This document shows positions 3,801 to 38,860 of a DNA stretch of 49,021 nucleotides, piece after piece. This DNA is from an uncultured Desulfotomaculum sp. (GTDB taxonomy: Bacteria; Bacillota; Desulfotomaculia; Desulfotomaculales; Desulfotomaculaceae). The notes under the pieces were generated by a model. That model was given only the letters and a program-made list of their open reading frames with translations, did not search any database and was not told where the DNA came from. Where the stretch lies: assembly GCA_946411205.1 (NCBI GenBank), contig CAMKDG010000010.1:1-49021 (forward strand). Direction: 5' to 3'. A program made the translations under genes and the position numbers. How positions within the stretch are numbered: the first letter of the stretch is position 1; the number at the start of each line of letters is the position of its first letter.

Positions 3801-4802
3801 GTGAAAAATACGCTAATGGCTTTATCTTGTTTTTTATTTGCAATCATAGTAGGCAGCACGTCTGCCGTAGCTGCCCAACCATTGACGATGCAGATAAATG
3901 GATCTGCGGTAACGGTTCCTCCGGGTACCCATGTTACCGAAGGACAAGTGATGCTGCCCATTCGATGGGCCGCCGAGCAGTTGGGGGCCTATTCTATTCA
4001 GTGGGATCCCGAGGCACGGGATATTGTCATTAAAACCAATGAAGATTTATATCAGATAACTAAGCTTGATTATTATGCTTTAGCCTTAGAGCATCTGCCC
4101 GCAGGCCTAGGAGAAGTAGCGGACAGGGTGGGGAAAGTGTCTTTACCCCAGAGCAGTGATAGAGATAGGAAGTTGGTTCTGGTGTTAGACTCTTGGCAAG
4201 AGAAATATGAGAGGCGTTTGGAAATCCGTATGATAGTCATTAATGAGAAGCAACCATATCCGCGTGATTCGGTGCTTTATAGCTTTGAAAATTATAAGGG
4301 CCATTTATATGTTCCGATGGATTGGTTAGTGTACCTGTTTGGGGCCAATGTGCATTATAACCAGGCTACGAACCAGCTGTCCATTCAGGTTCCTGACCTA
4401 AAAGAAGTTGAACAGCACTTGGCAGTCATAGAGAATGCCCTAATGCCCGCAACACCCCAGGAAGCCATGCAATTGTGGGGCCGGGGCGAGCAAATCCGCA
4501 ATGGTGCTCTACAATATGCGGTTTTATCACCAGAGCTTCGCCAGCAAGCAGCTAAGCGCGTTCATGAAGCAGGCTGGACCACCGGTTATTCAAGTCCTTG
4601 GGTTGGGTCGATGACAGTAAAAGAAGCAAAGAAACTTAGCGATACAGCCGTGGAATATACCGTTACCTTTCCCGAAGAGACTTCGGTTCCCCCGCATACA
4701 ACCGCAACAGAAAAGTTTGTTGTTAGGAAACTTACTATGGACGGTAAAGAGGGCTGGTTTATTACAGAGATGCTCCAGTCCAGCGGTTATGGGCTACTCT
4801 AA
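3801..4802 (+). CDS. Exported protein with copper-amine-oxidase-like N-terminal (stalk) domain
   Basis: A 333-residue protein with a signal peptide (hydrophobic about residues 5-24, cleavage near AVAA). A stalk domain follows: MQINGSAVTVPPGTHV, then VMLPIRWAAEQLGA. This domain binds nothing known and usually tethers or presents other modules outside Gram-positive cells. A second copy-like element (LYVPMDWLVYLFGANVHY) appears near residue 170. The C-terminal half is unassigned. GTG start with GGGGGA upstream. It overlaps the start region of the following acetyltransferase gene, so the two are probably co-transcribed. Confidence 0.75.
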   Translation: MKNTLMALSCFLFAIIVGSTSAVAAQPLTMQINGSAVTVPPGTHVTEGQVMLPIRWAAEQLGAYSIQWDPEARDIVIKTNEDLYQITKLDYYALALEHLPAGLGEVADRVGKVSLPQSSDRDRKLVLVLDSWQEKYERRLEIRMIVINEKQPYPRDSVLYSFENYKGHLYVPMDWLVYLFGANVHYNQATNQLSIQVPDLKEVEQHLAVIENALMPATPQEAMQLWGRGEQIRNGALQYAVLSPELRQQAAKRVHEAGWTTGYSSPWVGSMTVKEAKKLSDTAVEYTVTFPEETSVPPHTTATEKFVVRKLTMDGKEGWFITEMLQSSGYGLL

Positions 4803-7116: not shown

Positions 7117-8199
7117 TTAACGGAAGGTATTAATGACTTCGACGATCGTTGTTACGTCATTCTGGGAAAGGGCCGGATGAACCGGTATGGAAATACAGGT
7201 ATTCGCTAGGTCTGCTGCTACCGGCCAGGTACCTAAGCAGCCCGGTATATTGCTGTAGGCTGGTTGAGCCGGAATGATTAACGGGTAGTGAATGCCGTAA
7301 CCGATGTTGTTTTTGGCCAGGTAAGCAGCAAAAACATCCCGCTCCTTTACCTTTAAGGTATATTGATGATAAACATGTTCTTTGTCGGGCAGGCACGCTG
7401 GTTTTTGCACCTGGGAGTTAACAAGATGGTTGTTGTAGAATTTTGCGTTGTCGATTCTCCGTTGATTATAGAGATCTAGTTTTTTTAGTTGTTCTAAGCC
7501 AATGGCAGCATGGATATTGGTCATGCGGAAATTATATCCTACCAAATCATGGTGGTAACGCTGCCGCTGCCCATGATTGACCAATAATCTTACCTTTTCT
7601 TCGACGCTTGGGTCATCGGTTAGGACCATGCCCCCTTCGCCGGAGGTTATATTTTTAGTGGGATAAAAGCTAAAGGCGGCAGCTTTGCCAAAGGTACCTA
7701 CTTTGCGGCCCCGGTAGGTGGCTCCGTGGGCCTGGGCGCAATCCTCCAGAACCGGGACTTGGTACTTTGCCGCCAGTTCCAGGATTTCATCCATATCGGC
7801 CGGCAGACCAAAAAGATGAACCACCAGAATGGCTTTCACTTCCGGGTTATCTTGCAGGGCAGAACGCAACTGAGCGGGGGAAAGATTATAGCTTACCGGA
7901 TCAATATCGACAAAAATCGGAGTAGCCCCGGTGAATAAAATGGCATTAGCGGTGGCGATAAAAGAAAAAGGGGTGGTAATAACCTTATCTCCGGCACCGA
8001 TTCCCAGGGCTGCCAAGCTGGCGTGTAGTGCCGTTGTCCCCGAGGAGGTAGCGATGGCATAGCGGCAACCGTGATAGCTCTTAAATTGCTCTTCAAATTC
8101 CTGGACATAACTACCCGCTGCAAGCATACCACTACGCAAAACTTCTAATACTCGCTCTTCTTCCTCTTTGCCCAACAAGGGTTTCACATGGGGAATCAT
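7117..8199 (-). CDS. DegT/DnrJ/EryC1/StrS-family sugar aminotransferase (GnnB/WbpE-like)
   Basis: A 360-residue PLP-dependent aminotransferase that converts a keto-sugar nucleotide to an amino sugar, usually with glutamate as donor. Family features are TSSGTTALHASLAALGIGAG near residue 51, EDCAQAHGA near 152, and the PLP lysine K182 in FSFYPTKNITSGEGG. The ATG at 8199 is certain: GGAGGAA precedes it and it overlaps the LpxC-type stop as ATGA. A longer in-frame reading runs back inside that gene and is not real. With the Gfo/Idh dehydrogenase at the head of the operon it forms a pair like GnnA/GnnB or WbpB/WbpE, which put an amino group at C3 of a UDP-GlcNAc-type sugar. The exact sugar is inferred. 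Confidence 0.88.
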   Translation of the reverse strand: MIPHVKPLLGKEEEERVLEVLRSGMLAAGSYVQEFEEQFKSYHGCRYAIATSSGTTALHASLAALGIGAGDKVITTPFSFIATANAILFTGATPIFVDIDPVSYNLSPAQLRSALQDNPEVKAILVVHLFGLPADMDEILELAAKYQVPVLEDCAQAHGATYRGRKVGTFGKAAAFSFYPTKNITSGEGGMVLTDDPSVEEKVRLLVNHGQRQRYHHDLVGYNFRMTNIHAAIGLEQLKKLDLYNQRRIDNAKFYNNHLVNSQVQKPACLPDKEHVYHQYTLKVKERDVFAAYLAKNNIGYGIHYPLIIPAQPAYSNIPGCLGTWPVAADLANTCISIPVHPALSQNDVTTIVEVINTFR

Positions 8200-9050
8200 G
8201 AACAGTTCCTCCTTAACAGGGGTTTCATTTTTTGACACATTTCGAAATTGTCCTTGTGGCCTGTTCTGATTCCAATAAAATGGCCCTGTACTGCCTGACC
8301 CAGGGAAAAAATGTCTCCCAACAGGTCCAGGGCTTTGTGCCTGGCAGGTTCGTTGGCCCACTGTAACGGTACCTGATTAGGCCCAGGGGGGAAAATCAGG
8401 CAGTCCTGCATGTTCTCACCTATTAATCCGGCCACCCTTTCAAACTCGCTTTGAATAATGTATGATCTGGCCGGTGCCAGTTCAGCGGCAAAATCCGTTG
8501 GTTGATTCAGCGTATAATGAGCTACCTGGGTGGGAATTTCTTTATGGGGGTAATCCAGTAGGTAGGTAATGCTAAGTTGTGGCGCGGGTAATGCCACTAA
8601 GAAACGATCATACCGTTTTTCCTGAATATAAAATGAGTTTGCTACCAATAGCGGCTCCGGTACCCGAATGTAATTTTTTGGTGCAGGTTGAAAAACAGGT
8701 TCTGCTTTTAAGAGAGCACGAACAAAATCGTGGCTGCTGAAACTACTTACCACCGGAATGGACGGGTTGTTCAAGCATATTCGCAAATTATCTAAGCCCA
8801 ACCCGGCAATGGCAGCTAGTAAATGCTCGGTATGCTCGATGCGAATATCCTGGAGAACCAAGGAGGTCCAGCGGGAGTCCACCCGTACATATTCGGGCCG
8901 GCAAGGAATTTCCGGCTGACCGGGTAAATCTTCTCTGACAAAAACAATCCCGCTGTCAGGGGGTGCCGGGTGGAATTTTACGGTCGAGGAAGTTTGACCG
9001 GTAATGCTAATACCGGAACAAAAGCCTGGATGTTTGATTGTTTTTTGCAT
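8196..9050 (-). CDS. LpxC-type UDP-acyl-GlcNAc deacetylase homologue
   Basis: A 284-residue protein with all active-site elements of LpxC, the zinc amidase that removes the N-acetyl group from UDP-3-O-acyl-GlcNAc in lipid A synthesis. By position: EHTEHLLAAIAGLGLDN holds the general base E75 and zinc ligand H76; ARSYIIQSEFE near 194 matches the ARTF segment; RHKALDLLGD holds zinc ligands H238 and D242; GHKDN holds the catalytic H265. The protein therefore looks active. It is unusual because the window otherwise looks Gram-positive, with no other lipid A gene (lpxA, lpxD, lpxB) nearby. It sits between a CgeB-like glycosyltransferase (2-bp gap) and a sugar aminotransferase (4-bp overlap). It probably deacetylates an amino-sugar nucleotide for another glycan or glycolipid. 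Confidence 0.87.
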   Translation of the reverse strand: MQKTIKHPGFCSGISITGQTSSTVKFHPAPPDSGIVFVREDLPGQPEIPCRPEYVRVDSRWTSLVLQDIRIEHTEHLLAAIAGLGLDNLRICLNNPSIPVVSSFSSHDFVRALLKAEPVFQPAPKNYIRVPEPLLVANSFYIQEKRYDRFLVALPAPQLSITYLLDYPHKEIPTQVAHYTLNQPTDFAAELAPARSYIIQSEFERVAGLIGENMQDCLIFPPGPNQVPLQWANEPARHKALDLLGDIFSLGQAVQGHFIGIRTGHKDNFEMCQKMKPLLRRNCS

Positions 9051-23183: not shown

Positions 23184-23885
23184 ATGGATATCAATGAATT
23201 ACTAGTGCATTTCAATCTAACCAGGCAGGAAGCCACCATCTATACAACACTGTATGCAGAAGGCGAACTGACTGGTTACGAGGTGGCGAAACTAACAGGT
23301 ATTTCCCGTTCCAATACCTACACCTCCCTGGCGGGGCTGGTGGAAAAAGGGGCAGCCTATGTCATTGAAGGAACCGCTACCCGCTACACGCCGGTTCGGA
23401 TAGAAGATTTTTGTGACAACAAAATTCGGCAACTGCAGCAGATTAAACAGGATTTACTCAAAGGGATGCCCCGTAAAAGAGAAGAGACGGATGGATACAT
23501 TACCATCAAGGGCGAGAAACATATTTTAGAAAAGATGAGAAATATGGTCGCTCGGGCTCAGGAACGGGTGTATCTTTCTGTCGCCAGACCAACCCTTTCC
23601 TTTATCCTAGCAGAATTAAAGGATGGATTGGCGAGAGGTTTAAAAATTGTCATTATTACCAATCAACCCTTTGAGTTGGCTGGAGCCATCATCTATCATG
23701 CTGAAAAGCCACCGCATCAAATCAGATTGATCGTCGATTCCGCCAATGTTTTAACGGGTGATATAGCGGATGGTGATTTTTCAACCTGTTTGTATTCGAA
23801 AAAGAAAAACCTGGTGGAACTAATCAAAGAGTCCATAAAAAATGAGATAACGTTGATAGATTTAATGAAAGGAAAGGGATCATGA
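23184..23885 (+). CDS. TrmB-type transcriptional regulator
   Basis: A 233-residue protein. The N-terminal winged helix (LVHFNLTRQEATIYTTLYAEGELTGYEVAKLTGISRSNTYTSLAGLVEKG) is typical of TrmB. A coiled linker (about 70-95) leads to a phospholipase-D-like/TrmB middle domain (ITIKGEKHILEKMRNMVARAQERVYLS). The long sugar-binding domain of archaeal TrmB is absent. Its last codons overlap the lysA start by 4 bp (ATGA), which couples regulator and enzyme. It probably regulates its own operon; the ligand is unknown. Confidence 0.85.
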   Translation: MDINELLVHFNLTRQEATIYTTLYAEGELTGYEVAKLTGISRSNTYTSLAGLVEKGAAYVIEGTATRYTPVRIEDFCDNKIRQLQQIKQDLLKGMPRKREETDGYITIKGEKHILEKMRNMVARAQERVYLSVARPTLSFILAELKDGLARGLKIVIITNQPFELAGAIIYHAEKPPHQIRLIVDSANVLTGDIADGDFSTCLYSKKKNLVELIKESIKNEITLIDLMKGKGS

Positions 23886-25147
23886 AAAAGACATTTGTAA
23901 ATTTAGCACAGCTACAGGAGATTACCCAACAATACCCGACACCATTTCATTTATACGATGAAAAGGGTATTCGGGAAAATGCGCGCAGATTGCAGCGGGC
24001 ATTTCAATGGAATAAAGGCTTTAAGGAGTATTTTGCGGTCAAAGCTACGCCGAACCCTGCCATCCTGAATATCTTAAAGGAAGAGGGTTGTGGTGCGGAC
24101 TGTTCATCCTTTACAGAATTAATGTTGGCCCAGGCCGTAGGCTTTACCGGGGATGAAATAATGTTTTCCTCCAATGTAACCCCCGTGGAGGATTTTGCTT
24201 ACGCCAACAAGCTTAATGCCATGATTAACTTTGATGACATAACGCATATTGATTTCTTTCATCAGATCGCCGACATGCCGGAAACCATTAGTCTGCGTTA
24301 TAATCCAGGCGGCGAATTTAAAATCAGCAATGCCATTATGGACAACCCCGGTGAGGCCAAATATGGTTTAACCCGCGAACAGTTAACCGAGGGCATTAAA
24401 AAGCTGCAGGATTTAGGGGTTAAGCACTTTGGTCTGCATGCATTTCTGGCCAGCAATACCACAACCAATGAATATTACCCGGAACTGGCTAAGATTCTAT
24501 TTAAAACCGCGGTAGAACTAAAGCAAGAAACCGGTGCCCATATTTCTTTTATCAATCTATCGGGCGGGGTGGGGATACCCTATCGCCCTGAGCAGGAACC
24601 GGCGGATATCATGGCCATCGGCGAGGGAGTACGGCAGGCTTATCAAGAAGTGTTGACACCGGCAGGGATGGATGATGTGGCCATCTACACCGAGCTGGGC
24701 AGATTTATGCTAGGCCCCTACGGTTGTCTGGTAACAACTGCCTTGCATGAGAAACACATCCACAAGGACTATATTGGTCTGGATGCCTGTGCCGCCAATC
24801 TGATGCGGCCGGCCATGTATGGTGCCTATCATCATATTACCGTGATGGGCAAGGAGCATCTTCCCTGTGATCATAAATATGATATTACAGGTGGTCTCTG
24901 CGAAAACAATGATAAATTTGCTATCGATCGCCTGTTACCAAAAATTGATCTTGGGGATGTACTGGTTATACATGATACTGGAGCTCACGGCTTTGCCATG
25001 GGTTACAATTATAATGGCAAGCTGCGTTCGGCAGAGGTTTTACTGAAAGAAGACGGCAGCACCGAACTGATCCGCCGGGCGGAAACACCCGCAGACTATT
25101 TTACTACCCTGAATCATACCGAATACTTCAAAAAATCATTGTTTTAG
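23882..25147 (+). CDS. lysA: Diaminopimelate decarboxylase-like PLP enzyme
   Basis: A 421-residue fold-III PLP decarboxylase. The PLP lysine is in EYFAVKATPNPAIL (about residue 57), the His-containing FGLHAFLASNT and SGGVGIP stretches bind cofactor, ELGRFMLGPYG follows, and ITGGLCENNDKFA supplies the active-site Cys from the second subunit. The usual reaction is meso-diaminopimelate to lysine. Some relatives act on other D-centred amino acids, and the pairing with a TrmB-type regulator instead of lysine-pathway genes leaves this open. The spacing of motifs (for example FHLYDEKGIRENAR at the start) fits LysA well. Confidence 0.87.
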   Translation: MKKTFVNLAQLQEITQQYPTPFHLYDEKGIRENARRLQRAFQWNKGFKEYFAVKATPNPAILNILKEEGCGADCSSFTELMLAQAVGFTGDEIMFSSNVTPVEDFAYANKLNAMINFDDITHIDFFHQIADMPETISLRYNPGGEFKISNAIMDNPGEAKYGLTREQLTEGIKKLQDLGVKHFGLHAFLASNTTTNEYYPELAKILFKTAVELKQETGAHISFINLSGGVGIPYRPEQEPADIMAIGEGVRQAYQEVLTPAGMDDVAIYTELGRFMLGPYGCLVTTALHEKHIHKDYIGLDACAANLMRPAMYGAYHHITVMGKEHLPCDHKYDITGGLCENNDKFAIDRLLPKIDLGDVLVIHDTGAHGFAMGYNYNGKLRSAEVLLKEDGSTELIRRAETPADYFTTLNHTEYFKKSLF

Positions 25148-25170
25148 GAGCCTAAATAGCGTAAAGTGAA

Positions 25171-25217
25171 GTTGTACAGGCCTCATTCCTAAAGAGGAAT
25201 TCAGGCCTGTCTTCAAC
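25171..25217 (+). promoter_or_regulatory. Large hairpin between lysA and the PNPOx gene
   Basis: ACAGGCCT...AGGCCTGT with an inner ATTCCT/AGGAAT stem and outer GTTG/CAAC pairs. There is no T-run, so it is probably an RNA structure, operator or weak terminator instead of a standard terminator. Confidence 0.5.
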
Positions 25218-25241
25218 TACAGGGTAAAAGGAGGAGATACC

Positions 25242-25709
25242 TTGTTTAAGGAACTCCGTCGTAAGAAGAAGCTGATGTCCCAGGAGGATGCCAGTAAAAT
25301 TATCAAAGAGGCCGCATATGGGACCCTGGCCAGCGTTGGTGAGGATGGCTATCCCTATGCGGTACCGTTAAACTACGCTTATGAAAACGGCACGATTTAT
25401 TTCCATTCTGCGCCTGAAGGCCATAAAATTGAAAACATCAAACATAACCATAAAGTTAGCTTTTCGGTGGTAACCTATCAGCAAGTGTTACCCGAAAAGT
25501 TTGATACTGAATATGATAGTGTGATTGTTTTTGGCAAGGCCTTTGAGATTATCGATGAGCAGGAAAAGAAGCAGGCCCTTACCCTGCTAATAGAAAAATA
25601 TTCCGGGGATTATCTTGAACAGGGTGCTAGGTACATCGATAGGGCTGTAAAGGGAGTTGGGGTTTTTAAAATAGAAATTGAGCATATGGCGGGGAAATGT
25701 GGACGGTAA
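25242..25709 (+). CDS. PNPOx-like flavin-binding protein (NimA-related)
   Basis: A 155-residue split-barrel protein. AAYGTLASVGEDGYPYAVPLNYAYENGTIYFHSAPEGHKIENI is the FMN-binding core of the NimA/pyridoxamine-oxidase-like group. Members reduce nitroimidazoles or bind flavin or haem; the substrate here is unknown. TTG start with GGAGGAG upstream. The flanking hairpin and the riboswitch promoter on the other side suggest it is monocistronic. Confidence 0.82.
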   Translation: MFKELRRKKKLMSQEDASKIIKEAAYGTLASVGEDGYPYAVPLNYAYENGTIYFHSAPEGHKIENIKHNHKVSFSVVTYQQVLPEKFDTEYDSVIVFGKAFEIIDEQEKKQALTLLIEKYSGDYLEQGARYIDRAVKGVGVFKIEIEHMAGKCGR

Positions 25710-25725
25710 CCAGCGATAGTTATGC

Positions 25726-25754
25726 TTGTTTCTTCTTTGTTTAAAGTGTATACT
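25726..25754 (+). promoter_or_regulatory. Sigma-A promoter of the TPP-riboswitch/luxE-luxC operon
   Basis: TTGTTT, a 17-bp spacer and TATACT. Transcription should begin near 25761, just before the TPP aptamer. Confidence 0.75.
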
Positions 25755-25773
25755 TGAAAAAATGAATATTTTG

Positions 25774-25911
25774 TCCGGGAGCTTGTGGAAGCAAGCTGAG
25801 AGTACGACTAGGCCGTCGTAGACCGGTTGAACCTGTTGGGTAATGCCAGCGTAGGGAGTGGAGAGATTAGGAAGGCACTTTGCTTACGCAGAGTGTCTTT
25901 TATTTTTTTAG
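25774..25911 (+). ncRNA. TPP (THI-box) riboswitch with terminator
   Basis: The aptamer runs from about 25774 to 25865 and contains the conserved CTGAGA and GAACCTGTTGGGTAATGCC followed by AGCGTAGGGA, the core THI-box elements. The expression platform is an intrinsic terminator at 25872-25909 (AGGCACT / AGTGTCT stem, then TTTTATTTTTTT). TPP binding should cause premature termination, so the downstream luxE-luxC-ABC-SDR operon is expressed when thiamin pyrophosphate is low. It is nearly identical to the second riboswitch at 36362, including the loop of the terminator. Confidence 0.95.
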
Positions 25912-25932
25912 CTAAGAAAGGGTTGGACGAGT

Positions 25933-27018
25933 ATGCAACAGCAAGAAATAATCAATAGGATCCTGGCGTTTATCACAGATCAGGAGGAGTCCGCAGCGGC
26001 TTTTAACCAGTTGGCCCTACAACTATTTTCTTACCAATATAAAAATAACCTCCCTTACCAAAGCTTCTGCCTGCAAAAGGGCAAAACCCCGCGGACAGTT
26101 AAAGAATGGCAGGATATCCCTGCGGTAACCATTAACGCCTTTAAGGAAGTAACCTTAAGTTGCGCTGATCCCCGGCAGGCGGCAGGGGTTTTTATGACCA
26201 GTGGAACAACCCAGGGGGTTCAGGGGAAACACTACCATCCTAGCCTAGCGGTCTACGATCAATCCATGATCCATAATTTTAAACGGCATTTTATGAAGGA
26301 TACCGAAAAAATTCGTATGGGAATTCTTTTTCCTATGGTAGCAGAGATGCCGCATTCTTCGTTGGCTCATTACTTGGCACTGGCTGTTCAGGAATTTGGG
26401 ACACCGGAGAGCCATTATTTGGTTGATCGCCAAGGAGTCGAGATAGATCGGTTTATGATGGAACTGGCACAGGCGGAGCAGACCGGGGAACCCTATGGAT
26501 TATTGGGAGCATCCTTTAGCTTTGTACATCTGTTAGATGAATTGGCCAAAAGGGGCAAACAGTTTTCTTTACCCAAAGGGAGCAGAATTCTGGATACCGG
26601 TGGTTTTAAGAATCGCTCCCGAGAAATTGCCTTAGAGGAATTTTATGAGAGGCTCGAATTTTTCCTGGGAGTGCCCAGAAAATCCTGTATCAATATGTAT
26701 GGTATGACTGAGCTGAGCACCCAGTTTTACGATGACGGTAATGAAATGGTACCCTCTGTTAAGTACGGCCCTCACTGGAGCCGTACCAGGCTAGTCAATC
26801 CTTTAACCGGGGTGGAGGTTCCCCGGGGGGAGCAGGGCGTTTTGGTGCATTGTGATCTGGCCAATTTTAATTCCGTTACCACTATTCTCACGGAAGATCT
26901 GGGTGTGGAAGTGGCTGGCGGCTTCTTGTTATTGGGGAGAGCCCAAGGTGCCGCGGCGAAGGGGTGTTCCCTTGCGGTTGAAGAATTTATTGAGAGTGGA
27001 AGAGGTCGAGTTAAATGA
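25933..27018 (+). CDS. LuxE-like acyl-protein synthetase (thiamin-regulated)
   Basis: A 361-residue adenylate-forming enzyme of the LuxE family, which activates a carboxylate with ATP and holds it as a thioester for reduction by LuxC. Visible motifs are FMTSGTTQGVQGKHYH near residue 89 (the phosphate loop), MYGMTELSTQF near 256, and the tail GAAAKGCSLAVEEF with Cys345, the position expected for the acyl-carrying cysteine. No luxA or luxB is present. It is the first gene after the TPP riboswitch and overlaps luxC by 4 bp. I infer that its substrate is a carboxylic acid related to thiamin; a fatty acid remains the alternative. Confidence 0.88.
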   Translation: MQQQEIINRILAFITDQEESAAAFNQLALQLFSYQYKNNLPYQSFCLQKGKTPRTVKEWQDIPAVTINAFKEVTLSCADPRQAAGVFMTSGTTQGVQGKHYHPSLAVYDQSMIHNFKRHFMKDTEKIRMGILFPMVAEMPHSSLAHYLALAVQEFGTPESHYLVDRQGVEIDRFMMELAQAEQTGEPYGLLGASFSFVHLLDELAKRGKQFSLPKGSRILDTGGFKNRSREIALEEFYERLEFFLGVPRKSCINMYGMTELSTQFYDDGNEMVPSVKYGPHWSRTRLVNPLTGVEVPRGEQGVLVHCDLANFNSVTTILTEDLGVEVAGGFLLLGRAQGAAAKGCSLAVEEFIESGRGRVK

Positions 27019-28463
27019 AAGAACGGGCTGGCTATCTCCCCGGTATCAGCGAAGACGATGTGGCCTGGCAGACAATAACCTTTAACAGAAATGAAGAAGT
27101 ATTGGAAGTGGCAGTACCGGTTTTGGCCCAGGAGCAAATGCAACAGTTGGCGGAGCAAATCAAAAACAATAGCCGCCAAGTGCTAAAAACCCTGGCCATA
27201 GGCGAGATTGTGGAAATTCTGGACAAGGCCGTGGCAGTCTTCCTGGATCGGCATTCCCCCTATCGCCGGAAGGCAGAACAGCTTTTACCCATGGTAACCG
27301 GCTATGACCCGGAAGTGATCCGTCACGGTTTGACCTCTTTTTTAAAGACCTTTAGGAAACCCCAGTTACTGCGGTTTTTGGCAGAGGATTTGGGAAATAT
27401 CTCTCTTTTGGATGACTTTCAACCCAGAGCGAAAGGCGGCTTTGCCAAGGCCTTTGGCCCGGACCTAATTGTGCATGTCTGGGCGGGTAACGTTCCGGCC
27501 TTGCCGCTTTGGAGCTTGCTGGCCGGGATGCTGGTCAAGTCCGGCAATATTGGCAAGGTTGCCAGTGCCGAGCCCTTATTTGCCGGTTGGTTTGCTAACG
27601 TGCTGGCGGAGGTAGAGCCTCGTCTGGCCGGCTGCCTAGCCATTGTTTGGTGGAAAGGTGGCGATGCGGAACAGGAACAAAGCCTGTTGGGACAGGGCGA
27701 CGTGGTGGTGGGTTATGGCAGTAATACCTCCTTGACATCCCTGCGCAGCAGAATTCCTGTTACAACACGCTTTTTACCCTATGGGCATAAAATGAGTTTC
27801 GGTTTGGTCACCAAGGACAGTTTAGATGCACGCAAAGCTTGGCCAACAGCTCATGCTGCGGCCTTAGATGTGATTCGCTATGATCAACAGGGTTGCTATT
27901 CCCCGCATTTTTTCTATGTGCAGCGAGGCGGGGCTGTTTCACCCGGGGAGTTTGCTAAATACCTGGCCCATGAACTAGAGTGCTTTGCTCACAGGTACCC
28001 GCGCCGGGCCCTTTCCCTGGCAGAAATGTCAGACCAGGCAGCTTGGCGGCAGCAGGAAGAACTGACTCTTTTCAGCACGCCAACCAAGGAAATCTTAGGA
28101 GATGATGCCCGAGCGTGGACGGTTGTTTATGAAGAAGGGGCCCAGATTACCCCCAGTTGCCTCAATCGGACGGTCAAGGTTCTGGCAGTGGATCACTGGG
28201 AAGAAATCTTGCCTCAGCTTATCCCCTATCGCCCCTTGCTGCAAACCGTGGGCGTGGCCGCTGCCCCCCGGGAGCTCTGGCAAATTGCTGAATTACTCGG
28301 CAGCGCCGGTGTGACACGGATTACCTCCCTCGGGAGGATGACCTCTCCGGAAGCAGGTTGGCATCATGATGGACGTTTTAATTTGTTAGATCTGATTACT
28401 ATGGTGGATATTGAATCTGCGGCGGAAGAGTATGCCGAAAGATTGGCCCCTTATGTTGATTAA
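27015..28463 (+). CDS. LuxC-like acyl-CoA/acyl-enzyme reductase (thiamin-regulated)
   Basis: A 482-residue LuxC-family reductase, which takes an acyl group from CoA or LuxE onto a cysteine and reduces it with NADPH to an aldehyde. The fold is aldehyde-dehydrogenase-like: VHVWAGNVPALPLWSLLAGM near residue 155 (cofactor region), YGSNTSLTSLR near 235, and DQQGCYSPHFFYVQ with the nucleophile Cys294. ATGA overlap with the luxE-like gene implies coupled expression and probably a complex, as in the lux fatty-acid reductase. An aldehyde product could pass to the SDR at the end of the operon. Confidence 0.88.
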   Translation: MKERAGYLPGISEDDVAWQTITFNRNEEVLEVAVPVLAQEQMQQLAEQIKNNSRQVLKTLAIGEIVEILDKAVAVFLDRHSPYRRKAEQLLPMVTGYDPEVIRHGLTSFLKTFRKPQLLRFLAEDLGNISLLDDFQPRAKGGFAKAFGPDLIVHVWAGNVPALPLWSLLAGMLVKSGNIGKVASAEPLFAGWFANVLAEVEPRLAGCLAIVWWKGGDAEQEQSLLGQGDVVVGYGSNTSLTSLRSRIPVTTRFLPYGHKMSFGLVTKDSLDARKAWPTAHAAALDVIRYDQQGCYSPHFFYVQRGGAVSPGEFAKYLAHELECFAHRYPRRALSLAEMSDQAAWRQQEELTLFSTPTKEILGDDARAWTVVYEEGAQITPSCLNRTVKVLAVDHWEEILPQLIPYRPLLQTVGVAAAPRELWQIAELLGSAGVTRITSLGRMTSPEAGWHHDGRFNLLDLITMVDIESAAEEYAERLAPYVD

Positions 28464-28476
28464 AGGTGGTGAATGC

Positions 28477-29223
28477 TTGAGTTTTTTACAGCTAGACCGT
28501 GTTACCTACAGTTATCCCGGCCAAGAGGCCATGATTAAAGAGATTAGCTGGCAAGTTGCCCAAGGGGAATTTCATTGTCTACTGGGGAAAAGTGGCTGTG
28601 GCAAGACTACTTTACTAAAGTTGGCGGCCGGTCTCTTGCCAGTGGCCCAAGGAACGGTCTATTTGCAGGGGGAGGCGGTAACCAAGCCCTCGCCCCAGGC
28701 GGGCTTTGTTTTCCAAGCACCCACCCTTTTAGAGTGGAAGACCGTGCTGGACAACGTCCTTCTACCGATTTCTCTCAAGAGAACACCCACCTCAGAGGAC
28801 TCTCGTCGGGCGGAGGATTTATTAGGTCTAATGGGTTTGCCGGCCCATCTACGGCACTACCCCACAGAGTTGTCCGGTGGTCAGCAAAGTCGGGTGGCCA
28901 TTGCCAGGGCACTTATTGAAAAACCCGCCATGCTCTTTTTAGATGAACCCTTTGCCGCCTTGGATGCTATTACCAGAGAAGAGCTTCAGGACGACTTGCT
29001 GAAGCTTTGTCAGGCGCAAGGGATTACGGTTCTTTTTATTACCCATGATATTGCCGAAGCACTTTATTTAGCGGATCAGGTAGCCGTTATGGTGGAGGGG
29101 AGAATCACCTTTACGGCAAGGGTAGACCTTGCTAAACCACGTCATTACACCATGCGATATGGTACCTATTTGAATGAGCTTGGCCGAGAAGTGCGGCAGG
29201 CCATCAGTGGAGGTGCAGCATGA
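28477..29223 (+). CDS. ABC importer ATPase (SsuB/TauB/ThiZ type)
   Basis: A 248-residue nucleotide-binding subunit with Walker A GKSGCGKTT, the Q-loop (VFQAPTLLEW), signature LSGGQQSR, Walker B AMLFLDEP and the H-loop (FITHDIAEAL). It belongs to the nitrate/sulfonate/taurine group, which also includes ThiZ of thiamin-precursor importers. The TTG at 28477 is chosen because AAAGGTGG lies 7-8 bases upstream. Earlier in-frame starts would lie inside luxC. It overlaps the permease gene by 4 bp. Confidence 0.92.
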   Translation: MSFLQLDRVTYSYPGQEAMIKEISWQVAQGEFHCLLGKSGCGKTTLLKLAAGLLPVAQGTVYLQGEAVTKPSPQAGFVFQAPTLLEWKTVLDNVLLPISLKRTPTSEDSRRAEDLLGLMGLPAHLRHYPTELSGGQQSRVAIARALIEKPAMLFLDEPFAALDAITREELQDDLLKLCQAQGITVLFITHDIAEALYLADQVAVMVEGRITFTARVDLAKPRHYTMRYGTYLNELGREVRQAISGGAA

Positions 29224-29972
29224 AACGGCTGGCAGGGTACCCTCTTATCGTACTGCTGTTGTTACTGCTAACCTGGCAATATTTTGCTGCCACCATGTCC
29301 GAATTGGTGCTGCCCGCACCCTCGGTTGTTGCTCTCACCCTATGGGAAGGATTGCTCAGCGGTTACTTTGTACCGCATATCCTTCGTACGAGTGCCGAGG
29401 TTTTCTGGGGACTGGTGTTGGGATGTAGCCTGGGTTTTGTTTTTGGTATCTTGATGGGCGAAGTGGAATTTTTCAGAAGGCTTTTCTTACCATATCTCAT
29501 CGCCAGTCAAGCTGTTCCTAAACTGGCCTTAGCGCCTCTTTTTATTTTGTGGTTTGGCTTTGGCATGACCTCCAAAGTGGTCATCACAGCCTTAATCTGT
29601 TTTTTCCCCTTATTGGAAAATACAATCACAGCCGTGCAGTATACCGACCCCCAAAAGCTAGAGTTATTTCGTGTCTTAGGGGCCAGCCGCTGGCAAACCT
29701 TGTTTTGTTTAAAAATACCGGGTGGGCTGCCCAGTATTATGGCAGGATTTCGTGTAGCGGTGATCTTGGCTGTGGTTGGCGCGGTTGTTGGGGAATTTAT
29801 TGGTGGCAGTGAGGGATTAGGGGCGTTGATTATTGCTTCCCAGGGTATGATGGACACGCCGTTAATGTTTGCTGTCTTGATCTTGTTAACCATCTTAGGC
29901 ATGTTACTCTATCAAGGAGTTACATTCGTTGAAAAATGCATCTTACAACCATATATGAGGGGGAAACGTTAA
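29220..29972 (+). CDS. ABC importer permease (SsuC/ThiX type)
   Basis: A 250-residue membrane protein with about six predicted helices: LIVLLLLLLTWQYFA at the N-terminus, then the EAA loop region (LFRVLGASRWQTLFCLKIPGG) that contacts the ATPase. VGEFIGGSEGLGALI and MLLYQGVTFVEKCIL close the protein, as in SsuC/ThiX permeases. It overlaps the ATPase gene and the following binding-protein start (TAATG). Confidence 0.92.
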   Translation: MKRLAGYPLIVLLLLLLTWQYFAATMSELVLPAPSVVALTLWEGLLSGYFVPHILRTSAEVFWGLVLGCSLGFVFGILMGEVEFFRRLFLPYLIASQAVPKLALAPLFILWFGFGMTSKVVITALICFFPLLENTITAVQYTDPQKLELFRVLGASRWQTLFCLKIPGGLPSIMAGFRVAVILAVVGAVVGEFIGGSEGLGALIIASQGMMDTPLMFAVLILLTILGMLLYQGVTFVEKCILQPYMRGKR

Positions 29973-30991
29973 TGAAACGAAAGAGCGTAGGAATCGCTTT
30001 GTTACTGGCTATGGTGGTATTCTTAACAGCCTGTGGCACAAAGGAACAGCCGGAAAAAACAACGGCTAAAGCCCCAAAAGAACTGCAAAGTGTTCGGGTA
30101 GCCAGTTGGAGTCAACCCATTACTGAGCAAACTAATTTACTGGTTGATCAGGAAAAAGGCTTTTTTAAAGAAAAGGGATTACAGGTAACCTTTGTACCTG
30201 GGGCGGGTGGTGGCGATGCCATCAAAAATATCCTGACCGGTCAAGCTGATATCGCTTTCACCGATCCCGGTTCCTTATACTTTGCCTTGGATAAAGGAGA
30301 AAAGTTACGGGTTATCTATAATATTTATCCCCAAAACGTCTTTAATGTAGTTTCTTTGAAAGAAAACAAGATCACCCGGCCCGCAGACCTAAAGGGGAAA
30401 AAAATTGGGGTCTATAGCTTAGCCAGCGGCACGCGCCAAAACTTATTAGTACTTTTAAATCAGGTGGGTCTGTCCGAGCAAGATGTTACCATTGTTGAAA
30501 CGGGGCTTTTGAATTTTGCCCCGCTAATGCAAGGGCAGGTGGATGCCACCGCAGCCACCGACACTGGGCTTTCGATCGGTAAACAAAAGGGTCTCGGCGA
30601 AATTGATGTGATGGAGGTAAAGGACTACTTAAATATCCCCAGTGATGTGTTTGTGGTAACAGAAAAAACCTATCAGGAAAAGAAAGAGCTAATTAGAGAC
30701 TTTCTGGCAGGCTATCGCAATAGCAGTCAATGGATGCTGGAGAACCCAGAAGAAGCGGCGGCCTTGGCTGTAAAATATGCCATTGATGGTAAGGAGGCAG
30801 GACGTAACCTCGAAATCATCCAGTTAAGAAATGCAGCCAGTGTATCTCCTGCTACCGAGAAGGTGGGTTTAGGCGCTCTCGATGTGTCGATCTTGCAACA
30901 AGGGGCGGATACTTATAAAAACCTGGGCCTCATCAAGAACTCATTAGATATGAGCCAAGTGGTTACTCAAGATCTGAGTCCCACCAAGTAA
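29972..30991 (+). CDS. ABC importer lipoprotein, NMT1/ThiY-type solute-binding protein
   Basis: A 339-residue binding lipoprotein. The lipobox FLTACG anchors it outside the membrane. The NMT1/THI5-like fold is seen in LLVDQEKGFFKEKGLQVTFVPGAGG, QADIAFTDPGSLY, DLKGKKIGVYSLASGTRQN and FVVTEKTYQEKKELIRDFL. ThiY, which binds a formylated pyrimidine, is in this family, as are sulfonate and nitrate binders. Its place behind a TPP riboswitch and beside luxE/luxC suggests a thiamin fragment, possibly an acidic one. ATG at 29972 with GGGGG upstream. Confidence 0.88.
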   Translation: MKRKSVGIALLLAMVVFLTACGTKEQPEKTTAKAPKELQSVRVASWSQPITEQTNLLVDQEKGFFKEKGLQVTFVPGAGGGDAIKNILTGQADIAFTDPGSLYFALDKGEKLRVIYNIYPQNVFNVVSLKENKITRPADLKGKKIGVYSLASGTRQNLLVLLNQVGLSEQDVTIVETGLLNFAPLMQGQVDATAATDTGLSIGKQKGLGEIDVMEVKDYLNIPSDVFVVTEKTYQEKKELIRDFLAGYRNSSQWMLENPEEAAALAVKYAIDGKEAGRNLEIIQLRNAASVSPATEKVGLGALDVSILQQGADTYKNLGLIKNSLDMSQVVTQDLSPTK

Positions 30992-31004
30992 GGGAGGCCT
31001 AGTC

Positions 31005-31775
31005 ATGTTAAAATTTCAAGGGAAGGTCGTTTTGGTGACCGGCGCTAGCCGTGGTATTGGCGCTGCCATTGCCCGAGCCTTTGCTGCAGAGGGAGCCTTT
31101 GTAATTATTAATTATTTGCAAAACGAACTAGCCGCGGCAAGAACCGTCGCAGCCTGCCAAGAGCTAGGTGGCGATGCCTGGGCCATCAAAGGGGATGTGA
31201 TGTCAGAGGGCGCTGTTACGGAGATGATCCAACAGGTCTTGGTAGAAGTCGGTAAGATTGATGTCCTAGTCAATAATGCCTTTAAACCCTATGAATTCGA
31301 TCCTGAAAAGAGAAAACTGGCCTGGCAACTTACCTGGCAGGATTTTCAGGCGCAAATGGAGGGGGCCTTGCGTTCTACCCATGGCCTCTGCCAAGCGGTG
31401 CTGCCCCAGATGAAAAAACGAAACCAGGGAAGCATTGTCAACATCGTGAGCAATCTCGTGGCCAGACCCATTATCCCCTATCACGACTACACCACTGCCA
31501 AAGCAGCCGTGATTGGCTATAGCCGCAACTTAGCAGCTGAACTAGGGCCCTTCGGCATTCGAGTGAATTGTGTGGCGCCGGGGTTGGTTTATCCCACGGA
31601 GTCCAGCCGCCATACCAAGGAAGAAGTGAAAGAAATGATTATTGCCCAAACGCCTCTGCGTAAAATCGCTTCACCGGAAGATGTGGCCGGGCCGGTACTC
31701 TTTTTAGCTTCGGAGTGGAGTGGTTTTATGACCGGCCAAACCCTCTATGTAGACGGCGGTTTTATTATGAAATAA
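31005..31775 (+). CDS. Short-chain dehydrogenase/reductase, FabG-like
   Basis: A 256-residue classical SDR with the cofactor loop TGASRGIGAAIA, the LVNNAF stretch, VNIVSN containing the catalytic Ser region, YHDYTTAKAAV with the catalytic Tyr and Lys, and the C-terminal YVDGGFIM. It reversibly interconverts an alcohol and a carbonyl with NAD(P)H. It starts 13 bp after the binding-protein gene in the TPP-controlled operon. I infer reduction of the aldehyde made by the LuxC-like enzyme to the alcohol needed by ThiD or ThiM. Confidence 0.88.
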   Translation: MLKFQGKVVLVTGASRGIGAAIARAFAAEGAFVIINYLQNELAAARTVAACQELGGDAWAIKGDVMSEGAVTEMIQQVLVEVGKIDVLVNNAFKPYEFDPEKRKLAWQLTWQDFQAQMEGALRSTHGLCQAVLPQMKKRNQGSIVNIVSNLVARPIIPYHDYTTAKAAVIGYSRNLAAELGPFGIRVNCVAPGLVYPTESSRHTKEEVKEMIIAQTPLRKIASPEDVAGPVLFLASEWSGFMTGQTLYVDGGFIMK

Positions 31776-31892: not shown

Positions 31893-31920
31893 GGGGCGAC
31901 CTTTGGTCGTCCGTTGTTTT
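31893..31920 (+). terminator. Terminator-like hairpin after the thiamin-regulated operon
   Basis: GGGGCGACC-TTT-GGTCGTCC followed by GTTGTTTT. It resembles a GTAGGGGCGACC hairpin repeat found dispersed in many Firmicutes genomes. Confidence 0.6.
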
Positions 31921-35580: not shown

Positions 35581-36354
35581 ATGGAAGATTTTTACGTATT
35601 TTTATTTCGAAACCAGGACATGTTGGTAAAACGTGCTGGGGAGAGCGTACGGATGCCAACTTTCCAGGACCTAAAAGAAATTGGTATAGAGCTAAAAAGG
35701 AAACATTACCTTGGTGAGCTGAATCAAATTTTATGCTATGCTGCTGAATTTGAAACGGATATTCAAATGCCTGATGGCTTTTCCCTTTGGGGGGTAAGAC
35801 AACTATTAGGCCAGGTTGATGACAGCCTTTTTCAAGTTGCCGGCAAGGGGTACCAAATTATCTATTGGGACCGAACCAGCCGTTTTTGTGGCAGTTGTGG
35901 TTCTCTGAACCAAGATAAACCGGATGAAAGGGCTAAACAATGTCCTAATTGCGGCTTCGTTACCTATCCCCGGATATCTCCGGCTGTTATTGTAGCGGTC
36001 ATTAAGGACAATCAGATTCTTCTGGCAAGAAACAAAAAATTTGCTAATCATATGTTTAGTGTTATTTCCGGCTTTGTGGATCCCGGAGAAACCTTGGAGG
36101 AATGTGTTCGGAGAGAAATTAAGGAGGAAGTGGGCATCGAGGTTAAAAATATACGTTATTTTGGTAGTCAACCGTGGCCCTTTCCAGATTCTTTGATGAT
36201 TGGTTTTACCGTAGAATATGCCCAAGGTGAGTTGAAAACGGATAATGTAGAAATTGTAGAAGCCAAATGGTTCACGGCAGATAAACTCCCCCACCTTTCT
36301 CCCAAAAGCACGATTGCCAGAGAGCTAATTGATTGGTATACTGTTAAGAAATAA
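35581..36354 (+). CDS. nudC: NADH pyrophosphatase (NudC)
   Basis: A 257-residue Nudix hydrolase that splits NAD(H) and can remove NAD caps from RNA. The zinc ribbon CGSCGSLNQDKPDERAKQCPNCG is followed by the Nudix box GFVDPGETLEECVRREIKEEVGI, which fits GX5EX7REUXEEXGU, and by SQPWPFPDS, the NudC signature. The second thiamin promoter lies inside its 3' end. Confidence 0.95.
   Translation: MEDFYVFLFRNQDMLVKRAGESVRMPTFQDLKEIGIELKRKHYLGELNQILCYAAEFETDIQMPDGFSLWGVRQLLGQVDDSLFQVAGKGYQIIYWDRTSRFCGSCGSLNQDKPDERAKQCPNCGFVTYPRISPAVIVAVIKDNQILLARNKKFANHMFSVISGFVDPGETLEECVRREIKEEVGIEVKNIRYFGSQPWPFPDSLMIGFTVEYAQGELKTDNVEIVEAKWFTADKLPHLSPKSTIARELIDWYTVKK
36314..36342 (+). promoter_or_regulatory. Sigma-A promoter of the thiM operon, inside nudC
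   Basis: TTGCCA, a 17-bp spacer and TATACT. Transcription would begin near 36349, a few bases before the nudC stop and about 13 bp before the TPP aptamer. Confidence 0.7.
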
Positions 36355-36361
36355 TATTTTA

Positions 36362-36498
36362 TCCGGGAGCTTGTGGAAGCAAGCTGAGAGTACGACTAAC
36401 CGTCGTAGACCGGTTGAACCTGTTGGATAATGCCAGCGTAGGGAGTGAAGAGATAACTAGGAGCACTTTGCTTACGCAAGGATGCTCTTTTTATTTTT
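36362..36498 (+). ncRNA. TPP (THI-box) riboswitch with terminator, second copy
   Basis: The aptamer (about 36362-36452) contains CTGAGA, GAACCTGTTGGATAATGCC and AGCGTAGGGA. The terminator at 36460-36498 has a GAGCA/TGCTC stem with inner TTTGC/GCAA pairs and CTTTTTATTTTT. It differs from the first copy at only a few positions and has the same CACTTTGCTTACGCA loop segment. High TPP should stop transcription of thiM-thiD-thiE. Confidence 0.95.
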
Positions 36499-36555: not shown

Positions 36556-37365
36556 ATGAAGCTGCAAAATATTGTGAATACGCTGCAAAGGGTGCGGCAA
36601 GTCAATCCCCTGGTACACAACATCACCAATGTTGTAGTAACCAATTTTACGGCAAACGGTTTGTTAGCCTTGGGTGCCTCGCCAGTGATGGCCTATGCTC
36701 CGGAGGAAGTGGCTGATATGGCCAGTATTGCCGGAGCTTTAGTTTTGAATATTGGAACCTTGCATGAAAAAGAAATAGCAGCCATGCTGTTAGCAGGTAA
36801 AAGCGCTAACCAGCATCAGGTGCCGGTAATTTTTGACCCCGTTGGTGCCGGGGCAACGGCTTATCGAACCGCCACGGCCCGCAAAATTGTCAAAGAAGTT
36901 AACGTTTCTATTGTCCGAGGAAATGCTGGGGAAGTTGCCAATGTGGTGGGAGAAAATTGGAGTGTACGAGGTGTGGATACCGGAGATGTCCAGGGGGATG
37001 TGGTATCCTTAGCCCAATCAGCCGCCAGACAACTTGGTACGGTGGTAGTGGTAACGGGTCAAGAGGATGTAGTCACCGATGGTCAGCGAACCTATCTGGT
37101 CCGTAACGGTGATGCCCTGTTAACCAAAGTCACAGGCAGTGGTTGTTTGCTTTCTTCGGTCATTGGAGCCTTTGCGGCAGTGGAGCAGGACCTTCTCTTA
37201 GCAGCTACCTCGGCCTTGGTAAGCTATGGCGTGGCAGCCGAAATTGCTTCCGCCAGTAAAGGACAGGCAGGACCCGGAAGCTTTCAAGTGGCTTTCCTGG
37301 ATCAATTGGCGAAAGTTTCAACCGATGAAATCATTAAATACGGCTCTGTTATAGAAAAAATCTAG
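36556..37365 (+). CDS. thiM: Hydroxyethylthiazole kinase
   Basis: A 269-residue ribokinase-like enzyme that phosphorylates 4-methyl-5-(2-hydroxyethyl)thiazole for thiamin salvage. It has [30 protein letters not shown] at the N-terminus (substrate side), FDPVGAGAT near 95, [11 protein letters not shown] near 118, and [17 protein letters not shown] near 195, the ATP-binding loop with the conserved Cys. First gene after the second TPP riboswitch. Confidence 0.96.
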
Positions 37366-37383: not shown

Positions 37384-38196
37384 ATGAACCAAATAGCTAA
37401 GGCTTTAACCATTGCCGGTTCAGATTCCGGCGGCGGGGCCGGCATCCTGGCTGATATAAAGACCTTCCAAGAATTGGAAGTCTTTGGTATGTCTGCCATT
37501 ACGGCGATTACCGCTCAAAACACCTTGGGTGTGCAAGGGGTTTATCCCATGTCCGTGGAGGCTGTACAGGAACAACTAAAGTCCATTGGTGAAGATATCG
37601 GGACCGATGCACTGAAAACCGGGATGCTCTTTAGCAGTGAAATCATTCAGGTGGTGGCTGAACAAATAAAACATTATCAGTGGCGCAATGTTGTCGTGGA
37701 CCCTGTGATGATCGCCAAAGGCGGAGCTTCTTTGCTGCAAAGGGAGGCGATAGAGGCGCTGAAAAAAGACCTCCTGCCGCTGGCAACGGTCATTACCCCC
37801 AATATTCCAGAGGCGGAACTTTTAACCGGCATAACCATCAAAAAGCTTGCGGATCGACAAAGGGCGGCCCAATATTTATGGGATTTGGGTGTTGCCCATG
37901 TGGTCATCAAAGGTGGCCACGGTGAAGGCGAACTTGTGGATTTGCTGTTCGATGGGAAGGAGTTTACCGAGTACCGGAGTGAGAGAATCCAGACGAAAAA
38001 TACCCATGGTACAGGGTGTACCTTTGCCGCCGCGGTCACGGCAGAGCTAGCCAGGGGCAGGGGAGTAAAAGAAGCAGTACAAGTTGCCAAAGAATTTATC
38101 CAAGCGGCCGTGGCAAACCAAATAGAAGTGGGCCATGGACATGGACCAACCAACCATTGGGCCTACCGAAGAGAAAAAATGAAGGAACATAGATAG
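37384..38196 (+). CDS. thiD: Hydroxymethylpyrimidine/phosphomethylpyrimidine kinase
   Basis: A 270-residue kinase that makes HMP-P and HMP-PP. It opens with [22 protein letters not shown] and has [12 protein letters not shown] near 101, [13 protein letters not shown] near 137, and [12 protein letters not shown] near 210 with the GTGC anion hole. The order thiM-thiD-thiE is that of a salvage operon. GGGGAAA ribosome binding site. Confidence 0.96.
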
Positions 38197-38206
38197 AAGG
38201 CGGGTG

Positions 38207-38860
38207 ATGGAAATCATTACAGATGCAAAGATGCGAGAGTTATTAAAAGTATATTTTATACTGGGGAGTACTAACTGCACCAAAGACCCCGTAGAAGTAA
38301 CCCGCCAAGCCATTGAGGGTGGCATTACTTTATTTCAGTACCGGGAAAAGGGCACCGGGGCTTTACTGGGTGAAGATAAATATAAATTAGCCCAAGCCCT
38401 GCAAAAGCTTTGCCAACAACATCAAATCCCCTTTATTGTCAATGATGATGTAGATTTAGCCCTCTCCCTTAATGCCGAGGGTGTGCATATTGGCCAAGAG
38501 GATGAATCTGCCGCCGCGGTAAGGGAAAAAATCGGCAATAAAATTCTGGGTGTATCTGTTCATACCAGAGAACAGGCTTATGAGGCGATCCAGCAAGGTG
38601 CCGATTACCTTGGTCTAGGTCCTGTTTTTTCCACCACCACCAAGGAAGATGCCAAAGCGGCAGCCGGCACAGCCCTTATTCAAACCCTAAGAAAAGAGGG
38701 GCTGACCATTCCTATGGTGGGTATTGGCGGGATCACAGCAGAAAATGCCCCTATGGTTATAGCAGCCGGGGCTGATGGGGTGGCTGTCATCACAGCTATC
38801 AGCCTGGCTGATTCAGTTATCCAGAGCACTCAAAAACTCTGCCAAGCAGTTCACGGTTAG
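38207..38860 (+). CDS. thiE: Thiamin-phosphate synthase
   Basis: A 217-residue TIM-barrel enzyme that joins HMP-PP and thiazole phosphate to thiamin phosphate. Typical stretches are LFQYREKGTG, PFIVNDDVDLALSLNAEGVHIGQED (Mg and pyrophosphate site), GVSVHTREQA, YLGLGPVFSTTTKEDA and GIGGITAENA. The ATG at 38207 is preferred to the GTG at 38204. The start lies 10 bp after thiD. Confidence 0.96.
   Translation: MEIITDAKMRELLKVYFILGSTNCTKDPVEVTRQAIEGGITLFQYREKGTGALLGEDKYKLAQALQKLCQQHQIPFIVNDDVDLALSLNAEGVHIGQEDESAAAVREKIGNKILGVSVHTREQAYEAIQQGADYLGLGPVFSTTTKEDAKAAAGTALIQTLRKEGLTIPMVGIGGITAENAPMVIAAGADGVAVITAISLADSVIQSTQKLCQAVHG

Follow-up and report, generated by a model that had tools for sequence, protein, structure and literature searches.

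Why should genes of the LuxE and LuxC families, to which the long-chain fatty acid reductase of lux operons belongs, stand behind a thiamin pyrophosphate (TPP) riboswitch? The question is raised by a 49,021-nucleotide stretch of DNA from an uncultured Desulfotomaculum sp. (assembly GCA_946411205.1, contig CAMKDG010000010.1, positions 1 to 49,021; hereafter the window). Here, a TPP riboswitch is followed by six tightly packed genes (25933-31775) that code for a LuxE-like protein, a LuxC-like protein, the ATPase, permease and substrate-binding protein of an ATP-binding cassette (ABC) importer, and a short-chain dehydrogenase/reductase (SDR). We propose that this operon probably encodes a TPP-repressed salvage route for the oxidised pyrimidine of thiamin, in which a pyrimidine carboxylate would be taken up and reduced to 4-amino-5-hydroxymethyl-2-methylpyrimidine (HMP). 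The features concerned are as follows.

25765..25874, plus strand: TPP riboswitch aptamer ahead of the luxE operon (RF00059, 62.9 bits, full model 1-105)
25870..25911, plus strand: terminator-like hairpin 3' of the aptamer with a 14-pair stem, a 4-nt loop and a T-run, the likely expression platform
25933..27018, plus strand: luxE-like carboxylate-activating/acyl-protein synthetase (PF04443, 61.9 bits, cut-off 24.9)
27015..28463, plus strand: luxC-like acyl-thioester reductase, aldehyde forming (PF05893, 300.5 bits, cut-off 21)
28411..29223, plus strand: ABC importer ATPase (PF00005, 110.5 bits)
29220..29972, plus strand: ABC importer permease (PF00528, 103.8 bits)
29936..30991, plus strand: substrate-binding lipoprotein, NMT1/THI5 type (PF09084, 177 bits)
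31005..31775, plus strand: SDR, proposed aldehyde-to-alcohol step (PF13561, 205.7 bits)
31894..31912, plus strand: terminator-like hairpin 3' of the operon (pattern scan; class not above shuffles)
36353..36461, plus strand: second (twin) TPP riboswitch, upstream of thiM-thiD-thiE (RF00059, 66.4 bits)
36556..37365, plus strand: thiM, hydroxyethylthiazole kinase (TIGR00694, 326 bits, cut-off 256)
37384..38196, plus strand: thiD, HMP/HMP-P kinase (TIGR00097, 362.5 bits, cut-off 205)
38204..38860, plus strand: thiE, thiamin phosphate synthase (TIGR00693, 210 bits, cut-off 145)

The aptamer ahead of luxE passed the RF00059 gathering score (54.3 bits) and covered the full model, and its twin passed the same score, in agreement with an original prediction made from the window alone that had placed riboswitches at both sites. 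The operon leader had a fold z of -3.0, and the hairpin at 25870-25911 occupies the position expected of a TPP expression platform. The promoter that had also been assigned to the operon was not recovered: in a sigma-70 promoter scan starting at 25600, no site preceded the aptamer, and sites were no more frequent than in shuffled sequences. The predicted order luxE-luxC-ABC-SDR was confirmed by open reading frames and Pfam matches, and the predicted ThiM, ThiD and ThiE downstream all exceeded their NCBIfam cut-offs. Comparison with a related locus (L011; L and G are our labels for loci and genomes) suggested a later TTG near 28477 as the likelier start of the ATPase. This protein resembles the ATPases of nitrate, taurine and sulfonate importers and the permease resembles SaoP and SsuC, all with scores under the cut-offs of those models.

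Both LuxE and LuxC passed their Pfam family cut-offs and had the catalytic Cys at the predicted place. Multiple alignments showed that Cys345 of LuxE and Cys294 of LuxC are each invariant in 82 of 82 clade sequences. In profile matches with the solved lux LuxC-LuxE complex (PDB 7xc6), Cys345 aligned with the KGCSL motif of the LuxE chain (7xc6_E) and Cys294 with the YDQQxC motif of the LuxC chain (7xc6_A). The curated models of the lux long-chain fatty acid reductase were far from reached (NF052244, 62.7 versus 550 bits; NF052251, 100.2 versus 750 bits), and the operon's LuxE and LuxC therefore belong to a separate clade of these families. No luxA/luxB luciferase or luxD domain was present in the six operon proteins, the extent of this search, which was not made genome-wide. 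In the SDR, Tyr162 and Lys166 were found in 76 of 76 sequences, with Ser (52) or Thr (24) at position 149. Its matches among solved structures were FabG-like or generic dehydrogenases, and no thiamin enzyme occurred by name among the matches listed (60 of 85).

We further checked the occurrence of this LuxC in 84,980 GTDB species genomes by an alignment scan. The 80 named loci considered here are the best 80 of 147 relatives, the weaker ones lying outside this view; they are 53-96% identical and belong to Bacillaceae and kin, Desulforamulus, Desulfosporosinus, and Alpha-, Beta- and Gammaproteobacteria, D. aeronauticus being the nearest named relative of the window (96% identity). Using a covariance model built in this work from ten TPP aptamers, we detected a TPP riboswitch upstream of luxE in 78 of these loci (E-value 3e-7 or better), one match being partial as the contig begins inside the aptamer (L053). 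The two misses (L067 and L088) are on contigs which begin at or just before luxC and thus lack upstream sequence; with these dropped, the link holds in 78 of 78 usable loci. RF00059 itself was run on 12 of the 80 loci, and 8 reached its gathering score. The same covariance model gave no TPP match at two distant LuxC loci (L018 and L019). The original prediction had proposed a search for LuxE-LuxC pairs beside TPP riboswitches and had named as its refutation the presence of this branch in non-thiamin contexts; such contexts were found neither among the usable named loci nor among eight plasmid loci described below.

Within the window's own lineage the system is sparse. Any LuxC match was seen in 4 of 113 genomes of the order, only one of them close besides the window's own (the class-level search covers the same 113 genomes), and in 6 of 398 genomes of the phylum. 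Besides the window genome and G051, two phylum genomes, whose LuxC proteins are 62% and 45% identical, carry a TPP riboswitch before luxE, and in the one with 45% identity an SDR lies directly 3' of luxC. When 348 genomes of the phylum were searched with the Pfam LuxC model, five gave near-full-model matches, the window's own among them; four are the TPP-linked ones, and the fifth (G383) had no TPP match in its 20 kb locus. In a tree of 82 clade LuxC sequences and two outgroups, a branch with support of 89/82 set 23 Bacillota rows apart, and the window fell beside D. aeronauticus and Desulfosporosinus; the outgroup branches are very long and the root is unsure. Taken at the level of sequence, the TPP-luxE-luxC operon is real and widely conserved across two phyla, Firmicutes and Proteobacteria, and this extends to its riboswitch, gene order and catalytic residues.

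Gene order was counted in 81 riboswitch loci (the 78 named ones plus L015, L016 and L017, of which L017 is near-certainly the same genome as L023, with identical LuxC). All six genes were present in 72 of them, usually in the order luxE-luxC-ATPase-permease-binding protein-SDR. Three loci (L016, L042 and L048) are genuinely without ABC genes, and the other six incomplete loci end at contig ends. In five betaproteobacterial loci (L057, L062, L063, L073 and L102), thiD lies between the riboswitch and luxE, and in two of these genomes (G524 and G537, loci L073 and L102) this operon thiD encodes the only ThiD listed over the cut-off. In other loci the operon continues into thi genes: into thiM-thiD-thiE in L036, and into thiD-thiE without thiM in L058, whose genome has no ThiM match. 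In Peribacillus loiseleuriae (L041), in which no ThiC was found, a second TPP riboswitch lies behind the operon, together with genes for a ThiE/TenI-like protein, a ThiO-like protein (by eye) and ThiG. In Bacillus sp. OK048 (L026, 5359-10004), thiM-thiD-thiE and thiW-luxE-luxC-ABC-SDR each stand behind a TPP riboswitch of their own; this genome possesses ThiG and lacks both ThiC and TenA. In the alphaproteobacterial metagenome-assembled genome (MAG) of L048, a luciferase-like flavin monooxygenase gene (7482-8585, minus strand) is divergent from the TPP-luxE-luxC-SDR unit; the protein scored 182 bits with SfnG and 146 bits with RutA, both under cut-off.

The operon was also detected on plasmids. 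Of 27 plasmid records whose LuxC relative is full-length, we opened eight, all with at least 38% LuxC identity; one of three distant records was opened in addition. A TPP riboswitch preceded the operon in all eight according to our covariance model; seven reached the Rfam gathering score and the eighth (Priestia, L132) gave 49.0 bits, below 54.3. The distant locus, on a Streptomyces plasmid (L138, LuxC 27% identical), had no TPP riboswitch. It contains a LuxE-like gene and a LuxC relative that continues, in one long open frame, into an apparent adenylation enzyme (by eye), and looks like another use of the LuxE/LuxC enzyme pair. Public annotation of L132 and L133 names a long-chain fatty acid--CoA ligase and a bioluminescence acyl-CoA reductase with a bioluminescence Gene Ontology (GO) term; these names are probably misleading.

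Some units carry a different transporter. In Lactiplantibacillus plantarum and Levilactobacillus brevis, the TPP riboswitch is followed by an NCS2 symporter gene, luxE, luxC and SDR, with NCS2 in place of the ABC importer. These two units (L134 and L135) share protein accessions and reside on small plasmids with toxin-antitoxin and integrase genes; the shared NCS2-luxE-luxC-SDR unit suggests recent transfer. Niallia has two tandem TPP riboswitches (in Niallia taxi, L136, at 4498-4606 and 4685-4794) followed by thiW, an NCS2 symporter gene, luxE, luxC and SDR, and its symporter is 59% identical to the lactobacillus one. The NCS2 family is named for carriers of purines and pyrimidines, and a pyrimidine acid would be a fitting cargo.

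Which thiamin precursor the operon might supply was examined by surveying thiamin genes in 46 operon-bearing genomes (G000, G051, G118, G233 and 42 genomes from the 80 named loci). All 46 had ThiD over the cut-off. ThiM was represented by 22 full matches (21 over the cut-off and one just under) and by 5 two-piece matches in one open frame; it was lacking in 19 genomes, 12 with no match and 7 with weak hits below 27 bits, which in G512 and G515 fall on thiD. Thiamin pyrophosphokinase (TPK) was found in 19 genomes and not in 27, including all 27 proteobacterial genomes. Both ThiM and TPK were absent in 18 of 46, and for these carriers we see no obvious way to use any alcohol product except HMP. 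ThiC was absent in 8 genomes. ThiG exceeded 300 bits in 43 (G233, G511 and G523 gave weak scores only, although all but one of the 46 clear the low cut-off of the Pfam model), and TenA had no match in 16. Six genomes (G498, G506, G508, G510, G524 and G537) had ThiG without ThiC, and three of them (G498, G524 and G537) also lacked TenA. Judging by gene content, the half that is missing in such carriers is the pyrimidine. The ThiM and TPK absences, set against ThiD in 46 of 46, and these ThiG-positive, ThiC-negative carriers narrow the candidate substrate to a pyrimidine acid.

The binding protein is consistent with this assignment. Its AlphaFold model (pLDDT 86) ranked 3ix1 (ThiY with the formylaminopyrimidine FAMP) first in Foldseek, followed by the thiamin-bound 4nmy, 3qsl, sulfonate-binding proteins and the HMP synthase THI5. 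By sequence it scored 42.5 bits in the ThiY-type comparison, with the same fold and 3ix1 as the top structure. The window genome encodes a separate protein of ThiY type, with scores of 366.6 bits against 4nmy and 141.5 bits against 3ix1, which belongs to a TPP-controlled ThiXYZ-type importer beside TPK (L021, 7937-11812) and is 29% identical to the operon protein. Because of this separate importer and the low identity, the operon importer, originally described as of the ThiXYZ/SsuABC kind, probably has its own ligand and is probably not ThiXYZ itself. Conserved polar residues of the binding protein include W58, E64, D110, N134, T166 and D209 (33 of 33) and R167 (30 of 33); that R167 might bind an anion is no more than a guess.

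From this gene content we infer the substrate and each catalytic step. The ABC importer, or the NCS2 nucleobase symporter in relatives, would import a pyrimidine carboxylate, most likely 4-amino-2-methylpyrimidine-5-carboxylate. LuxE would activate the acid with ATP and hold the acyl thioester on Cys345, LuxC (Cys294, NADPH) would convert this thioester by reduction into the aldehyde, and a further reduction by the SDR would yield HMP. ThiD would then phosphorylate HMP twice and ThiE would join the product to thiazole phosphate. At high TPP, the riboswitch would halt transcription at the terminator.

Other substrates were weighed against the pyrimidine acid. The importer might instead take 4-methylthiazole-5-acetate, from which LuxE, LuxC and the SDR would restore hydroxyethylthiazole (HET) for ThiM. 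The chemistry would be the same, thiM is nearby in the window, lies 3' of the operon in L036 and occurs in 27 of 46 carriers, and the thiW in the units of Niallia and L026 is readable as a thiazole-side hint. We nevertheless regard this possibility as unlikely: 19 carriers are without ThiM, L058 has thiD-thiE and no thiM behind the operon, and 43 of the 46 have a strong ThiG match, against 8 that lack ThiC. Moreover, units with thiW would already provide for the import of the thiazole alcohol, which we take from its family name to be the role of ThiW.

Alternatively, the enzymes could serve a biosynthetic, non-salvage route to HMP or another TPP precursor via a carboxylate made by the cell. 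The three loci without ABC genes and two Pantoea loci that were opened have luxE-luxC-SDR and no transporter in the operon, and the 8 carriers lacking ThiC would suit such a route as well. Its probability appears low, as at least 72 of the 81 loci carry the importer genes, another importer substitutes in lactobacilli and Niallia, and nine loci read gene by gene showed no further recurring non-thi gene in the operon.

Import of thiamin acetic acid and its reduction to thiamin itself would agree with the thiamin-bound protein as second-best Foldseek match and with the TPK of the window genome; thiamin kinase ThiK was outside the gene survey, which leaves this acid some room. It is nonetheless improbable, given the 27 carriers without TPK. 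In relatives, the operon adjoins thiD, and no TPK was seen beside it in loci where no search was aimed at TPK; in the window genome, TPK sits with the different, ThiXYZ-type importer.

Fatty-aldehyde production as in lux operons, with the riboswitch as a chance neighbour, which the Pfam family names and public annotation would favour, deserves hardly any credence and was rejected in view of the lux model scores, the TPP link at all 78 named loci with upstream sequence and the lack of a luciferase domain in the operon proteins; chance co-location of riboswitch and luxE-luxC was rejected on the strength of the same TPP link. The predicted TPP control, the logic of importer, LuxE, LuxC and SDR and the preference for thiamin over fatty aldehydes are supported, and the thiazole and thiamin acids first listed as substrates are disfavoured by the ThiM and TPK absences.

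Besides the transporterless loci, the thiW genes and the ThiK gap, several points weigh against salvage of the pyrimidine acid or its support. ThiD is near universal and its presence in 46 of 46 alone proves little, the argument being the contrast with ThiM and TPK; absences in draft genomes and MAGs may reflect incompleteness; and ThiC in 38 of 46 carriers would make the route optional for most. The SDR received no specific family assignment in the NCBIfam scan. The NCS2 carriers score best with the xanthine permease model, below its cut-off, and other cargo is possible; sulfonate-binding proteins are among the fold matches of the binding protein. As to the riboswitches, four of the 78 TPP-positive loci (L046, L049, L064 and L074) also served to build the covariance model, L087 (54.1 bits) and L093 (52.7 bits) were just under the Rfam gathering score, and two more, L030 and L079, were absent from the Rfam hits at that threshold (73.9 and 53.3 bits with our model). 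Terminator-like sites as a class are not enriched in the region (7 found versus a shuffle mean of 9.1).

Upstream of the operon, the window (23184-25709) encodes a TrmB-type regulator, a LysA-like pyridoxal phosphate (PLP)-dependent decarboxylase, whose score falls slightly short of the lysA cut-off, and a flavin protein of PNPOx type, for which no thiamin link was seen.

The proposed substrate is a known thiamin metabolite: Neal and Pearson are said, by the title of their 1964 paper (cited in PMC7780320), to have met 4-amino-2-methylpyrimidine-5-carboxylate in rat urine. In the available portion of one account, the pyrimidine vitamers treated as salvageable are HMP, its aminomethyl analog AmMP and FAMP, and this acid is not among them (PMC10881298). 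TPP regulons have been described in a paper whose main text, as far as accessible, does not contain LuxE or LuxC and whose supplementary gene lists may name them (PMC3766115). As the original prediction had supposed, we found no description of a TPP-linked LuxE/LuxC salvage route in the open-licence literature. On balance, with some reserve, we favour an undescribed vitamin B1 salvage branch of Firmicutes and Proteobacteria that also travels on lactobacillus plasmids. Its core would be a fatty acid reductase of lux type that has taken on a new role, the reduction of a pyrimidine carboxylate, 4-amino-2-methylpyrimidine-5-carboxylate, to HMP; oxidised B1 debris would be a usable source and might even be the chief one for some bacteria that lack ThiC. 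If true, soils, sediments and fermented food would hold one more vitamin form that counts in their B1 economy, some genomes now classed as HMP auxotrophs would need another explanation, and a large LuxE/LuxC clade whose present annotation points to fatty acids or bioluminescence would gain a function. It also makes a sharp prediction, a single small compound as substrate.

Several known systems can be compared with this operon. ThiW, YkoFEDC, CytX and ThiV import ready-to-use precursors and, to our knowledge, none brings a carboxylate reductase. What they share with the operon is the import of HMP or HET for ThiD or ThiM under TPP riboswitches (in part from the available portion of PMC10881298). 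The lux LuxC-LuxE complex is alike in its two families, adjacent genes and aligned catalytic cysteines, and ATP-dependent acyl transfer to Cys followed by NADPH reduction is assumed to be common to both. Unlike lux, the operon has TPP control, an added SDR and importer, and no luciferase- or luxD-type domain, and the matches of the 7xc6 chains to its LuxE and LuxC are only 106 and 130 bits. A further parallel, in thiamin salvage, is the ThiXYZ/ThiY importer of FAMP with TenA, which likewise combines TPP control and an NMT1/THI5-type binding protein and serves the pyrimidine branch, as proposed for the operon. The operon differs in its distant binding protein (29% identity to the ThiY-type protein of the same genome), in its occurrence in the 16 carriers with no TenA match, and in its chemistry, which would be reduction instead of the hydrolysis that we take to be the function of TenA.

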